64,000 nt of DNA from positions 124,001 to 188,000 of the forward strand of contig JAJDDY010000067.1 of the NCBI GenBank assembly GCA_029260075.1. Direction: 5' to 3'. A program made the position numbers and the translations under genes. Of the stretch, positions 51,985 through 58,115 are shown one piece after another (the stretch's first letter is position 1; every line of letters starts with the position of its first letter). The notes beneath the pieces were generated by a model. That model worked only from the letters and a program-made list of their open reading frames with translations, had not been told where the DNA came from and did not search any database. Source of the DNA: Phycisphaerae bacterium (GTDB taxonomy: Bacteria; Planctomycetota; Phycisphaerae; UBA1845).

Positions 51985-53013
51985 ATGAACAAACTGCAAG
52001 CAGCCGCCGCCCTGATTACGATCGGTACGTGGCTTGGCGGCTGCGGGTCCGAACAGCCCCGATCCTCTGAGAATCCCTCACCCTCATCGAACGCGGCGTC
52101 GGACCCAACATCGTTGTTGAGCAAGGGTCGGGTGGCCTACTCGCAATACTGCATCGGTTGCCACGGCGTCGACGGCGATGGTCGCGGCGATGCAGCCCCC
52201 TTTCTCCACCCGAGCCCGCGCGATTTTCGACGCGCCGCCTTCAAGTTCAGTTCAACCAGAACCGGGCTCCTCCCCACCGACGCCGATCTGCGCCGCACCA
52301 TCGTCGACGGATTACCGGGCAGCGCCATGACCGGATTCCCCCTCCTCCCGGAATCAACGGTCGACGCCCTCATCGCGTACATCAAGTCCTTTTCTCCGCG
52401 TTGGCAGGGCACGGCTGCATCCGAGATTCCTTTCGTCGCTAATCCGTACGGTGCGAGCGACCGCATCGCCGATGCAATCGCGCGCGGCGAAGTCGTGTAC
52501 CATGGGTTCGCGACCTGTTGGAGTTGTCACCCCGCCTACGTATCCGCGGAGAGAATCAACGCGCACCTTGTGGCTATGGAAAACCCACCGAGGGATTCCT
52601 TTCGATCCAACCTGTCCGAGTCCGTATGCGAGCCCGACGCCTCGAGCACTGAGATCGTCCCGCCCGATTTTCAAAGAGACCCCGTGCGCGCCGGTCGCAA
52701 CGTTCGTGACCTTTACCGGTCCATCGCCGCCGGCATCACCGGGACCGCCATGCCCACTTGGATCGACTCGATGGACATCCCCGCCAACGACGGCAGCCCA
52801 CTTGTCGAGTCGGCGGACCTGTGGGCGACGGCGTACTATGTACGCAGCCTGATTCAACAACGTCCAGCCAAGCTGACGCCCGATGGCCTGACGGTACGTG
52901 ATCGACGACAACCCATCATGCTCACCGACGCGGCGCGGGATGCAGAAGTTGGTTCCAAGAAAACAGCCGTCCCCGCGCCGACCGAAGCTGAAGTGTTCGA
53001 GGAGGACGAGTAG
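51985..53013 (+). CDS. Diheme cytochrome c lipoprotein
   Basis: A 342-residue lipoprotein (lipobox LGGC, Cys20) with two heme c motifs: CIGCH (Cys56, Cys59, His60) and CWSCH (Cys178, Cys181, His182). The first is followed by GVDGDGRGDAAPFLHP, as in cytochromes of oxidase complexes. The stop codon is directly followed by the ATG of the CcoN-like gene, so all three genes of this cluster are one operon. It probably feeds electrons to the CcoO/CcoN pair. Confidence 0.88.
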   Translation: MNKLQAAAALITIGTWLGGCGSEQPRSSENPSPSSNAASDPTSLLSKGRVAYSQYCIGCHGVDGDGRGDAAPFLHPSPRDFRRAAFKFSSTRTGLLPTDADLRRTIVDGLPGSAMTGFPLLPESTVDALIAYIKSFSPRWQGTAASEIPFVANPYGASDRIADAIARGEVVYHGFATCWSCHPAYVSAERINAHLVAMENPPRDSFRSNLSESVCEPDASSTEIVPPDFQRDPVRAGRNVRDLYRSIAAGITGTAMPTWIDSMDIPANDGSPLVESADLWATAYYVRSLIQQRPAKLTPDGLTVRDRRQPIMLTDAARDAEVGSKKTAVPAPTEAEVFEEDE

Positions 53014-54468
53014 ATGGGACAGGTTGCGACGTCCATGGTCCCCACCGAGCAGGGCGAGCACCAACTCGCGGATAGCCTTGTAGACAAGCGACTCGTGCTC
53101 GCTTGTTTCATTGCCGCCATTGCGTACCTTTTCTTTGCGATGCTCGCCGGCTGGTTCTTTTCGTTCCAGTTTCTTCAAATCAACGCGTTCCCAGACAACG
53201 AATACTTGTCACCCGGTCGGTGGCGCATGGTTCATACCAATGTCGTGCTCTACGGGTTTCTCGCCAACGCCTACCTCGGCGCGCTCCATTGGTGTACGCC
53301 GCGACTAAGTTTGCGTCCGGTGCTAAGCCGCAAACTCTCGTGGTTCGTGTTCGTCGCGTGGCAAACTATGACGGTCGCGACCATCCTTGCGCTGCTCGGC
53401 GGACACGCTCAGGCCGTCGAATGGGGCGAGGCGCCGCCCGTCATCGATGTGGGTAATCTTGTCGTACTCGTCTTGGTGGCGATCAACTTCTCAATCCCAA
53501 TACTTCGCATGCGCGGGCCGATGTACGCGACGTTGTGGTACTTCCTGATCGGTTTCGCTTGGGTTGTCCCGCTCTACCTGACGGGCAACCTCGTTCCGCA
53601 ATACGTGGCCGGTGACGGGACCGGCGCGATCACGAAACTCGTCTTCTACGAATCGGTACAGCTCGGCGTCATGCCAATCGCGTGCGGACTGATCTACTAC
53701 TTTGTACCCGTGCTGGTCGGTCGACCCATCTGGAGTCATCGTTTGGCGATGGCGGGGTTCTTGTGTCTGATGATCGTAGCGCCGTGGGGTGGCCTCTTCG
53801 AGTTTGCCCACGGAAGCGTTTCGCCCACGCTGCACACGATTACCATGGTGGGCATGCTCGGCAACGCCGCGGTCGCAGCCATGTTGATCATCAACTACGT
53901 CGCGTCGACAGGTGGCGCCGCCCGCTCCAACGGTCGAACCTCCGTGGCTCGCCGATGGTTCGCCGCGGGCATGTTCTGCTATCTGATCGTTTGCATCCAA
54001 GGGGCGTTGCTAGGATCTTCCGCGTTTCAAGACGTCGTTCGTTTTTCAGATTGGGTCGTGGGTCACTCCCATCTCGTGATGTTCGGCGCGCTTGGGTTTT
54101 GGATGTTGGGAATCATGACCCACCTGCTCCCCAGCCTTCTCGGGGCGCGGTGCTGGTGGAGCGATCGCCTAAACGCATGGCATTTTTGGCTAAGCTGCGC
54201 CGGCTTGCTCATCATGATTTCCGCATTGATGATCGCCGGATGGCGCCAGGGATCCATGTGGGGCGAGCCCATTCCATGGGCGTCGACCGTGATTGCTGTT
54301 GTTTCGTTTTGGGCTTTGCGCACCGTGGCCGGTCTCGTGATCATCGTCGCCCAATTGTTCTTCGTCTGGAACATTCTCATGACCGCCGTGGATCAGCTAT
54401 CCCGCGACGAAGAACCTCATCAGTCAAACACGAACCATCCCGAACCGCAATCGAGTTACGTGCAATGA
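53014..54468 (+). CDS. CcoN-like heme-copper oxidase subunit I lacking Cu-B ligands
   Basis: A 484-residue membrane protein with 12 or so hydrophobic segments, aligned with cbb3-oxidase subunit I. The heme ligands are there: His74 in WRMVHTNVVLYGF and His351/His353 in WVVGHSHLVMFG. By my hand alignment to CcoN around the conserved YYFVP anchor (228-232) and the RP pair (237-238), the first Cu-B His position is Tyr212, the HH pair is Phe262-Glu263, and the cross-linked Tyr position is Ala256. His266 is near, but is displaced. So it should bind both hemes b but not Cu-B in the normal way. It could be an NO reductase-like variant, an inactive electron carrier, or a novel oxidase. Confidence 0.78.
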   Translation: MGQVATSMVPTEQGEHQLADSLVDKRLVLACFIAAIAYLFFAMLAGWFFSFQFLQINAFPDNEYLSPGRWRMVHTNVVLYGFLANAYLGALHWCTPRLSLRPVLSRKLSWFVFVAWQTMTVATILALLGGHAQAVEWGEAPPVIDVGNLVVLVLVAINFSIPILRMRGPMYATLWYFLIGFAWVVPLYLTGNLVPQYVAGDGTGAITKLVFYESVQLGVMPIACGLIYYFVPVLVGRPIWSHRLAMAGFLCLMIVAPWGGLFEFAHGSVSPTLHTITMVGMLGNAAVAAMLIINYVASTGGAARSNGRTSVARRWFAAGMFCYLIVCIQGALLGSSAFQDVVRFSDWVVGHSHLVMFGALGFWMLGIMTHLLPSLLGARCWWSDRLNAWHFWLSCAGLLIMISALMIAGWRQGSMWGEPIPWASTVIAVVSFWALRTVAGLVIIVAQLFFVWNILMTAVDQLSRDEEPHQSNTNHPEPQSSYVQ

Positions 54469-55136
54469 TGGACAAGCCATCATCCAAGACGTTGCTGTTC
54501 GCGGGCATGGTGGGTTCTTCTCTTTCGCTACTCGTGGTGGCTGCCGTCGCGCACACAAGTCACCTATCGCGGACAGAGTTGACGGCAGAACAACTCGCCG
54601 CCGACGGCATCGTGTACGAGTTCGTTCAACTCGCTGAGCGTTTCCCGGTCGAGTTCAATCGCTACTTTCCCGCCGGCGCTACCACCGAGTCCTACGCCGA
54701 AGCACTTCGACTCGGGCGGGATATCTATGTGGCTGAAGCTTGCTGGCACTGCCACACGCAGCAGGTCCGACCGATACCCGCCGATGAGCAAAGATGGGGA
54801 CCGCGATCGCAAGCGAGCGAATACCGAAACGAACTTCAGCACCCCATCATGCGTGGCACGCGGCGCGTCGGCCCCGATCTTTCACGCGAAGGTGCTCGAC
54901 GCAGCAACGATTGGCATCTCGCACACTTCTACGACGCAACCAGTGTCGTACCCACATCGGTCATGCCGGCCTACCGCTGGTTCCACGACGCACGCGGATA
55001 CCCCAACAAACGCGGCATGGCCATCATCACCTACATGCAGTCGCTGGGCAGTTGGCTTGATTGCTACCCCAACTGCCTCGACCGGCCGCCTTCGACCATG
55101 CAACGCGACCCGTCCGGCACGCGCGAGGGTGTGTGA
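54465..55136 (+). CDS. CcoO-like monoheme cytochrome c
   Basis: A 223-residue membrane-anchored cytochrome (signal/anchor LLFAGMVGSSLSLLVVAAVA) with CWHCHTQQVRP (Cys93, Cys96, His97), the counterpart of CcoO's CxxCHxQxIRP. Later RRVGPDLSREG and SVMPAYRWF match the conserved GPDL and MPAY of CcoO, the latter supplying the Met ligand. Length is close to the family norm. The ATG overlaps the previous gene's TGA (ATGA at 54465-54468). There is no CcoP or CcoQ gene in the window. Confidence 0.88.
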   Translation: MMDKPSSKTLLFAGMVGSSLSLLVVAAVAHTSHLSRTELTAEQLAADGIVYEFVQLAERFPVEFNRYFPAGATTESYAEALRLGRDIYVAEACWHCHTQQVRPIPADEQRWGPRSQASEYRNELQHPIMRGTRRVGPDLSREGARRSNDWHLAHFYDATSVVPTSVMPAYRWFHDARGYPNKRGMAIITYMQSLGSWLDCYPNCLDRPPSTMQRDPSGTREGV

Positions 55137-55646: not shown

Positions 55647-56867
55647 ATGGTCGCACAACCTCCAGAGCTAACCGACAGTCAGGTAGGCCGAGCGCTCGGC
55701 GTCAAGAGTCGATACGGTGGCGGCGGCATTTCGGCGGATGCGTTCCTCTCGCTCGGATGCATGGAGGGCATGTTCGACCATATCGTCGAAGCCGCCCCGA
55801 CCCGCGTAGCCAAGCCAGCCGGTCCGACGATCGTTTCGGGCTATGTGCTCGTCGGCGCCGTGACCTCGGTGGCCTACATCATTCACGCACTACCCATTCC
55901 GTCGATCGGCGTCATCAGCACGATCGTCATCGCCATTCTGCTGGGTATGATCGTGCGCAACGTCCTTCCGCTGCCCGGCTCGGTCAGGCCCGGGTGTAAG
56001 CACCTCATCAGAAAAGGGATTCCGATCGCGATCGTGTTGACGGGTGCCGGACTGAATCTCCACGTGATGCAAGCCGTCGGAGTCCGCGCGATGATCATCA
56101 CCGCCCTCTGCGTCGTCATCGCCGTTTCCGCCGGTTACTACCTCGGGCGATTGTTCGGTCTTCCCTCGCGCGCCGCGATGCTTCTCGGTGTAGGGACGGG
56201 GATATGCGGCAACAGCGCCATCGTCGCCGTGGCGCCGCTGATCGATGCCGACGACGACGATCTTGTCCTTTCGGTAGGCGCCATCAACCTTCTCGGATTC
56301 CTCGTCATGTTGCTTCTGCCGATCGCGGGCAAATGGTTAGCGCTCGACGGACGCGCCTTCGGCATTTGGGCGGGCACGTCGATTCACGCCGTCCCGCAGG
56401 TCGTCGCCGCCGGTTTCGTACACAGCGACCAAGCCGGCGAATTGGCCACGGTGGTCAAGCTTTTCCGCGTCGTCTTGCTTGCCCCAATGGTGTTCATCCT
56501 GGCGCTCGCCCACGCGCGGCAAAAAGCCGCCAGCGCCGGTGCGTCCGGTGACGGCCTGCGGATCCACTATGCACGCTTCGTTCCCTGGTTCGTGTGGGGG
56601 TTCGTGGCCTGTGCGCTCATGGGCACGTTCGGCCTGCTACCGACGCTAAGTTTTCCCATCGCCGGTTCGTCTCACGACATCGATCTACCGGTCGCGATGA
56701 AGACGGCCGGTAAGGTCTTGCTGACACTCAGCGTCGCAGCCATCGGGCTCGAGGTCGACATCCGCCAACTCGCCGGAGTTGGTGGTCGGGCGTTGCTCGC
56801 CGGCCTGGCCGCCGCGATCGTACTGGCCGTATCCAGCCTGATCGCCATCAAAATTCTAATCCCCTGA
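55647..56867 (+). CDS. YeiH/UPF0324-type putative sulfate exporter
   Basis: A 406-residue integral membrane protein with about ten hydrophobic segments. It has the family's conserved blocks: LLGVGTGICGNSAIVAVAPL (about 179-198), the acidic IDADDDDLVLSVGAINLLG, and the GTSIHAVPQVVAAGF block, all of which mark YeiH-type transporters. The first 60 residues form a non-conserved N-terminal extension; an ATG at residue 39 or 42 could be the true start. Substrate (sulfate or sulfonate) is inferred from the family only. No LysR regulator is next to it. Confidence 0.85.
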   Translation: MVAQPPELTDSQVGRALGVKSRYGGGGISADAFLSLGCMEGMFDHIVEAAPTRVAKPAGPTIVSGYVLVGAVTSVAYIIHALPIPSIGVISTIVIAILLGMIVRNVLPLPGSVRPGCKHLIRKGIPIAIVLTGAGLNLHVMQAVGVRAMIITALCVVIAVSAGYYLGRLFGLPSRAAMLLGVGTGICGNSAIVAVAPLIDADDDDLVLSVGAINLLGFLVMLLLPIAGKWLALDGRAFGIWAGTSIHAVPQVVAAGFVHSDQAGELATVVKLFRVVLLAPMVFILALAHARQKAASAGASGDGLRIHYARFVPWFVWGFVACALMGTFGLLPTLSFPIAGSSHDIDLPVAMKTAGKVLLTLSVAAIGLEVDIRQLAGVGGRALLAGLAAAIVLAVSSLIAIKILIP

Positions 56868-57104: not shown

Positions 57105-58115
57105 GTGTTACCAAAGAACGCCGTGCCTAGGTTACAAACCGTCCAACAGCACATTCTCGATCGGCAGCGGACTCAACATCCCGACGCTACGGGCGAGTTC
57201 AGCTGGCTTCTTTCGGGCATCACCCTCGCCACTAAGATCATCGCCGACCACGTTCGCCGCGCCGGGCTCATCGACGTCCTTGGCACCGCTGGCCACACCA
57301 ACGTTCAGGGGGAGCAAGTAGAGAAGCTCGACATCATTGCCAACGAAACCATTGCCGCCTGCCTTGGCTATCGAGGCAACGTGGGCATCATGGTTTCGGA
57401 AGAGGATGACGAACCGCGAATCATCAAGGATCTTGACGACCAAGCTAGATACATCGTCCTGTTCGATCCGCTCGACGGATCAAGCAACATCGACGTCAAC
57501 GTCTCGATAGGAACAATATTTTCGATCCTGCAACGGCGCGAGGACGTGGCCGCCGGCCGCGTCATGGACCACATTCTCCAGCCCGGATACCAGCAGGTTG
57601 CTGCGGGCTACGTGGTGTACAGTAGCAGCACCGTAATGGCCTACACCACCGGCGACGGTGTCCACATGTTCACGCTCGACCCCGCCATCGGCGCGTTTCG
57701 ACTCAGCCGCGAAGGTGTCACCATGCCGGAGTCGGGTCGAATCTACAGCATGAACGAAGCCTACCGCCGCAAGTTCCCTGACGGCATTAAGCGATACCTC
57801 GATTGGGTCAAGAGTGAAGAGTCAGGTGGGTACACCGCGCGCTACATCGGCTCCCTCGTTGCCGATTTTCACCGTACGCTGCTCAAAGGTGGCGTCTTTT
57901 GCTATCCGCCCACAGTCAGTGCGCCGCGCGGAAAATTACGTCTACTCTACGAAGCCAACCCGTTGGCGTTCATCGCCGAGCAGGCCGGTGGTACCGCTAC
58001 CGACGGTCGAGAGCGGATTCTCGACAAGATCCCCGCCGCCCTGCACCAGCGAACCCCGCTCGTCATTGGAAGCAAGTCAGAAGTCGCCAAAATCGCCGAG
58101 TTTTGGCAACCCTAA
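57105..58115 (+). CDS. fbp: Fructose-1,6-bisphosphatase class I
   Basis: Gluconeogenic phosphatase. The 336-residue protein has VSEEDDEP (metal-site acids), FDPLDGSSNIDVNVSIGTIF (the classic DPLDGSSN metal/substrate motif) and YIGSLVADFHRTLLKGGVF, plus LYEANPLAFIAEQAGG near the end. The start is GTG at 57105, preceded by AGGAG. It ends directly at a family A repeat. With the PPi-phosphofructokinase at 39.3 kb it covers both directions of this step. Confidence 0.96.
   Translation: MLPKNAVPRLQTVQQHILDRQRTQHPDATGEFSWLLSGITLATKIIADHVRRAGLIDVLGTAGHTNVQGEQVEKLDIIANETIAACLGYRGNVGIMVSEEDDEPRIIKDLDDQARYIVLFDPLDGSSNIDVNVSIGTIFSILQRREDVAAGRVMDHILQPGYQQVAAGYVVYSSSTVMAYTTGDGVHMFTLDPAIGAFRLSREGVTMPESGRIYSMNEAYRRKFPDGIKRYLDWVKSEESGGYTARYIGSLVADFHRTLLKGGVFCYPPTVSAPRGKLRLLYEANPLAFIAEQAGGTATDGRERILDKIPAALHQRTPLVIGSKSEVAKIAEFWQP

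Follow-up and report, generated by a model that had tools for sequence, protein, structure and literature searches.

A CcoN-like protein encoded in the window (the whole stretch of 64,000 nucleotides of Phycisphaerae DNA analysed here) keeps the heme ligands of a cbb3-type oxidase and has none of the histidines expected to hold CuB. This raises the question of what such a protein, still encoded among its partner cytochromes, may be for.

The gene unit and its metal sites

The unit lies on the forward strand and opens with a diheme cytochrome c carrying two CxxCH motifs (51985..53013; Pfam Cytochrom_C, 2e-11), which abuts the start of the gene for the CcoN-like subunit without CuB ligands (53014..54468; Pfam COX1, 1.9e-46) at 53013/53014. 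A CcoO/FixO-like monoheme cytochrome c with a CxxCH motif (54465..55136; Pfam FixO, 9.9e-34) follows and overlaps the CcoN-like gene by four bases (ATGA). The initial annotation had placed the gene between a diheme cytochrome c and a CcoO-like cytochrome, and both neighbours are confirmed by Pfam and coordinates. The CcoN-like frame runs for 484 codons from the ATG at 53014 to the stop at 54466-54468 and is free of internal stops, about 15 of which would be expected in 484 random codons. The host genome (G000) measures 4.9 Mb and is 96.87% complete in 93 contigs, the window gene being on a contig of 239 kb. Downstream of the unit are a YeiH-type transporter (Cons_hypoth698; window 55647-56867) and a fructose-1,6-bisphosphatase (window 57105-58115); different genes stand there in G001 and G027, the two genomes with comparable changes described below.

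With phmmer, the CcoN-like protein matches cbb3 CcoN (best 6xkw_n, 8.6e-28), and all five of the PDB sequence matches listed are cbb3-type chains. Its NCBIfam ccoN score (137.6) is far under the cut-off of 583, as is the ccoO score of its CcoO-like neighbour (108, cut-off 201). An AlphaFold model from a 36-row alignment (mean pLDDT 83.5, pTM 0.87, with pLDDT down to 61-80 in parts of TM6-8) is, among the structures compared, nearest in fold to cbb3 CcoN (3mk7_D; Z 46.6, rmsd 2.5, 442 aligned), followed by the NO reductases (NOR), represented by the cNOR 4xyd_A (Z 43.4, rmsd 2.4, 431 aligned).

Residues were mapped in an alignment of the window protein, 34 intact relatives and the P. stutzeri CcoN chain 3mk7, in which we take H60 and H347 to be the low-spin heme ligands, H345 the high-spin heme ligand, H207, H257 and H258 the CuB ligands, and Y251 the cross-linked tyrosine. 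The three CuB histidines are also named in the available part of a study on Nitrospina gracilis (PMC3578206). Both sets of heme ligands are kept, as had been claimed: His74 (codon 53233..53235, forward strand like those that follow) aligns with H60, and His351 and His353 (54064..54072) align with H345 and H347. At the CuB site, Tyr212 (53647..53649) takes the place of H207, and Phe262 with Glu263 (53797..53802) that of the pair H257 and H258, while Ala256 (53779..53781) replaces Y251; these substitutions had been read from the window alone, and the alignment with 3mk7 and the 34 relatives returns the same ones. The K-channel positions T215 and S240 of 3mk7 are Met and Ala in the window protein, and its Glu213 stands where 34 of 34 intact relatives have Asp. 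It had been suggested that a proper alignment might bring His266 to CuB. Neither sliding this residue into the site nor a gap shift achieves it, as alignment A1 shows no variation at the flanking V215, P221, Y228, P257 and F264, and the window row is gapless from 212 to 266 against the intact rows. On these residues, the window protein would have no CuB, and the known route of O2 reduction would probably be closed to it; the loss of the CuB and tyrosine residues supports the earlier expectation in this respect.

Compared with cbb3 oxidase (CcoN of 3mk7), the complex has the same fold, the same low- and high-spin heme histidines, and CcoO and diheme cytochrome partners. It differs in having neither the CuB histidines nor the cross-link tyrosine, in its K-channel positions, in the absence of an operon-type copper ATPase from the genome, and in its gene order, the diheme gene being upstream whereas ccoP is downstream. 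Judged by its sequence, the window complex appears to be derived from the C-type oxidases but does not carry the metal-site residues for which they are tested. The nearest printed case found is the cbb3-like oxidase of Nitrospina gracilis, also a cbb3-like protein, with fused subunits and unusual residues near CuB; according to the available part of that paper, the protein has most of its heme and CuB sites, with Gly in place of Trp203 (PMC3578206). The window protein, unlike that of Nitrospina gracilis, has lost all three CuB histidines. Gly is found at the Trp203 position in the intact relatives of the window protein as well. Among the matches listed in a search of open-licence literature, no CcoN without CuB was recognised from titles and the beginnings of abstracts, which is a weak indication.

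Intact relatives, altered genes and copper supply

Relatives were searched in the family (51 genomes), order (114), class (397) and phylum (392), sets that overlap, and further ones came from 77 named contig loci. From the phylum search, 40 new matches of at least 183 bits were retrieved, with G547, G599, a second match in G522 and all weaker matches left out; the weaker matches of the class and phylum searches lie mostly outside the residue survey. After collapse of duplicates, a few of which may persist, 139 CcoN-like genes were placed on the alignment. Identity to the window protein is at least 35% for 112 genes, and 102 of these keep all seven residues; seven, truncated or split, show no change in what can be read, and three (the window gene and those of G001 and G027) are altered; for this reason the loss is no slip of the alignment. 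All seven residues are kept in the remaining 27 genes (below 35% identity), and none of the 40 new phylum-search genes is altered where readable. Genes at L162 (G105), L157 (G348) and L024/L031 (G030) are interrupted, by what looks like a frameshift or by a contig end, and their readable sites are unchanged. A contig scan with the window CcoN-like protein as the sole query returned no relative. As many as 24 of the 51 family genomes are without any match to the CcoN-like protein, so the operon is often lost.

At positions 74, 212, 256, 262, 263, 351 and 353, the window protein reads HYAFEHH, that of G001 HGFCVHH and that of G027 HHYCHRH. All CuB ligands are replaced in G001, by residues other than those of the window, and a histidine is found one place on from a CuB position, where the stretch is two residues shorter. 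In G027, one CuB histidine and the high-spin histidine are lost, the latter to Arg at 351. What the three have in common is a binuclear site that is broken, differently in each, together with an intact low-spin pair. The ccoN and ccoO genes are fused in G001 and G027. Each host has a further COX1-family gene: a second, high-scoring one in G001; a 766-residue gene read as qNOR, the sole other member found, in G027 (87% complete); and one in G000 whose best model is CtaD/CoxA (580.7 bits, cut-off 670.75) and which is therefore read as A-type.

The intact operon, seen in Phycisphaerae and other phyla (e.g., G009, L167) and also on the Kuenenia contig L077, runs in the order hydrophobic protein, diheme cytochrome c, ccoN, ccoO, small protein, often a P-type ATPase, and a DsbD_2-family protein. 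The window shares with it the succession of diheme cytochrome c, CcoN and CcoO, with 40-51% identity in CcoN, but has neither the full set of catalytic residues nor the further genes. The upstream hydrophobic protein (L167:4489-5103, L070:4205-4897; alignment A3), about 205-240 aa long, lies 5' of the diheme gene in many intact operons of several phyla. It has three strong hydrophobic segments in both proteins tested and no Pfam family over the cut-off in the one protein tested, and may be a subunit or assembly factor that has so far gone unrecognised. The small protein (L167:8353-8721; alignment A4), 3' of ccoO in most intact loci, has two strong hydrophobic segments and matches FixS weakly (4.6e-4, below the cut-off). 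The operon ATPase of L070 scores over the NCBIfam cut-off as copper-translocating (435.5, cut-off 397), and from its place in the operon this ATPase would be CcoI.

Neither the upstream protein nor the small protein, the operon ATPase or the DsbD_2 protein is found beside the three changed genes. Whole-genome searches covered 20 genomes, namely the three changed ones and 17 chosen from the 34 intact genomes of the order. The upstream hydrophobic protein, the small two-segment protein, an operon-type copper ATPase (at least 437 bits) and a high-scoring DsbD_2 protein were each detected in 17/17 intact and 0/3 changed genomes. The best ATPase match reaches 323 bits in G000 and at most 332 across the changed genomes, which is the level of the paralogs of intact genomes. 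Operon-type copies are partial in G010 and G025, and they lie on a different contig from ccoN in the intact genomes G009, G067, G068, G010 and G050. A 49-residue ATPase stretch at a contig edge of G027 was considered as a remnant of the operon ATPase and rejected on identity: its identity is 80% with the CopA-like ATPase of G000 and 79% with that of G001, against 51-63% with six operon-type ones, and being nearer the former it is not counted as operon-type. The best DsbD_2 scores are 138-168 bits in 16 intact genomes and 73 in G019, where a contig end cuts the gene. The changed genomes give 55, 25 and 23, and proteins like the 55-bit one of G000 occur in intact genomes too. The joint absence of both small hydrophobic proteins suggests a role for them in the catalysis or assembly of the intact enzymes. 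As far as the available text of the respective reports goes, cbb3 depends on CcoI: R. capsulatus without CcoI has inactive cbb3 and scarce CcoN (PMC8475189), and in C. jejuni without CcoI the cbb3 activity is nearly abolished and is rescued by excess copper (PMC8267372).

Selective constraint and origin

Constraint was counted over positions that are the same in at least 97% of 32 intact operons (called invariant here), L035 and L038 being left out. Intact proteins, when left out singly, keep 95-100% of such positions. The window diheme cytochrome c keeps 53/54, all heme motifs included, CcoO keeps 56/66, CxxCH included, and CcoN keeps 101/168. The corresponding counts are 52/54, 48/66 and 86/168 in G001, and 55/66 (CcoO) and 100/162 (CcoN) in G027, whose diheme gene would lie off the contig. 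Among the ten CcoO positions lost in the window are 4, 18, 25, 29 and 33 in the N-terminal part. The losses in the window CcoN cluster in TM6-8 (24/66 kept vs. 77/102 elsewhere, p 9e-7), a clustering that is weaker in G001 (p 0.007) and G027 (p 0.03). The median identity is 48.6% for the diheme cytochrome c (48.7% among intact pairs), 52.0% for CcoO (64.2%) and 44.3% for CcoN (68.8%). End branches of the changed genes are 3.0-3.9 for CcoN (window 3.03; median 0.31) and 1.6-2.1 for CcoO (window 1.56; median 0.32); those of the diheme cytochrome c in the changed genomes are 1.0-1.1, about twice the median of 0.57. The proposal that selection keeps the complex is supported for the partner cytochromes, strongly for the diheme cytochrome c and less so for CcoO.

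Did the loss arise once? The RpoB tree, which leaves out the partial G015, places G000 beside the intact G011 (100/98) and G001 with the intact G019 and G025 (81/80), with G027 outside these groups. RpoB rejects both a clade of the three hosts (p 6e-5) and one of G000 with G001 (p 0.004). Since the hosts form no clade, there was either more than one loss or a transfer of the operon. The CcoN tree (L036, L037, L038 and L040 left out) joins the window gene with those of G001 and G027 at 97 SH-aLRT, a value obtained by a quick method and subject to a long-branch warning. With the same warning, the CcoO tree (L035 left out) joins the window and G001 (99/89), and one clade of the three is not rejected (p 0.26). 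In the diheme cytochrome c tree (L038 left out), a join of the window and G001 is not rejected (p 0.39). Several losses, or one loss followed by transfer, are both compatible with the trees. Met220 and Ala245, common to all three proteins, point towards one origin, and two of the three, G001 and G027, have the ccoN-ccoO fusion in common; mis-binning of the short contigs that bear the changed gene in G001 (12.4 kb) and G027 (5.4 kb) would weaken the RpoB argument. Beyond what the initial annotation gave, almost all other members of the family are intact, and the copper-type ATPase and the accessory membrane proteins are missing in the same three genomes. New here are this absence of the rest of the intact operon, copper-type P-ATPase included, the graded constraint, and hosts that form no RpoB clade.

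Possible functions of the altered complex

We propose that a C-type (cbb3-like) oxygen reductase gave rise to the membrane complex encoded by the three genes. The complex would be without the CuB half of the binuclear centre, would no longer need dedicated copper delivery and would not act as a terminal oxidase. Electrons would pass through the diheme cytochrome c, the heme c of CcoO and, in the CcoN-like subunit, the low-spin heme b. From there they would go to a different acceptor or return to c-type carriers in the periplasm; the A-type oxidase of G000 is one candidate end point. CcoN would serve as a membrane anchor and heme b relay, and the diheme cytochrome c would be the best-guarded part of the complex. 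In the genomes themselves, the CuB and tyrosine residues are lost and the heme-ligand residues kept, the copper-type ATPase and accessory genes are absent, and the diheme cytochrome c is strongly constrained; the absence of copper from the protein, the electron path and its acceptor are what we infer. Because the copper site and the copper-supply genes are lost and the partner heme proteins well kept, the unit probably survives as an electron-transfer complex, which is the best supported of the options first put forward. On the other hand, the very long CcoN branch, the faster CcoO with its ten lost invariant positions, the diheme branch at about twice the median and the frequent loss of the operon in the family count against it, and neither an acceptor nor a conserved neighbour gene was found. 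We give about an even chance to the reading that this is a cytochrome b/c complex without copper or oxidase function, retained for electron transfer.

A wider proposal is more tentative, and the balance leans somewhat against it. In this group of Phycisphaerae, a terminal oxidase would have become a copper-free respiratory pseudo-oxidase, either several times or a single time followed by transfer between lineages. It would have been stripped of the catalytic half of CcoN and of the copper and accessory gene set, while its c-c-c-b heme relay would have been retained to carry electrons or sense a gas in a new role. If true, this would be a case of a heme-copper oxidase that has naturally lost its catalytic metal, with the copper supply absent and the partner cytochromes still constrained, and it would make testable what the cbb3 scaffold does without oxygen reduction. 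Annotation of ccoN and ccoO is no proof of high-affinity oxygen respiration.

The strongest rival to the electron-transfer complex is decay in which the diheme cytochrome c has found a second use: copper supply and function would have been lost, ccoN would be a drifting relic, and the diheme cytochrome c, perhaps with CcoO, would be kept for other electron use. The length of the CcoN branches, the family genomes without a match, the disappearance of the accessory genes from the changed genomes and the different ways in which the three genes are broken agree with such a history. It fits less well with a frame that stays open across all its codons, with the 77/102 invariant CcoN positions kept outside TM6-8, with low-spin heme ligands kept in 3/3 genes, and with a ccoN still in register with its neighbours and even fused to ccoO in G001 and G027. 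We regard decay as rather unlikely.

A heme-only catalyst, also among the initial options, would need no second metal; heme b3, with its open distal side, would reduce NO, peroxide or some other small ligand, or would bind a gas for sensing. His351, kept in the window and G001, makes this possible for those two proteins, and c-type donors are present, but the Arg at 351 of G027 means that heme-only catalysis is no function common to all three. The TM6-8 stretches near the site, moreover, vary freely and hold no new residue set common to the three genes, and the reading appears distinctly improbable.

Even less can be said for NO chemistry at a glutamate-rich site, in which another metal would be held by Glu213, Glu263 and His266. 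In its favour, the window protein has acidic residues at 213 and 263. Neither Glu263 nor His266 is present in G001 or G027, however, and the NO reductases, although the next-best fold group, have FeB histidines and two Glu positions that the window protein has not kept. In an alignment with three qNOR-like genes of related genomes, called qNOR by motif, the FeB histidine positions are Tyr, Phe and Glu, the position of the FeB Glu is Gln216 and that of the TM8 Glu is Ala285. This option is very improbable. NO dismutase (NOD), of the qNOR branch, is a qNOR-like protein whose FeB ligands are altered. An artefact of alignment or assembly is barely credible and was rejected, for although the three changed genomes are assemblies of 93, 330 and 590 contigs and two of the genes lie on short contigs, the window gene is on a long one, without a frameshift and gapless through TM6-7, and two more genomes are altered at the same sites by other residues within a family that is otherwise intact.

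The intact family shows a further peculiarity. A near-constant TM8 Glu, at the position of window residue 285 (e.g., L004, L086, L099, L120), aligns with a qNOR Glu and was not found in the aligned cbb3 sequences. The proteins that have it carry the full oxidase residues, including the cross-link tyrosine, with Asp after the first CuB histidine. Judging from these residues, the intact family may represent an oxidase that is somewhat NOR-like.
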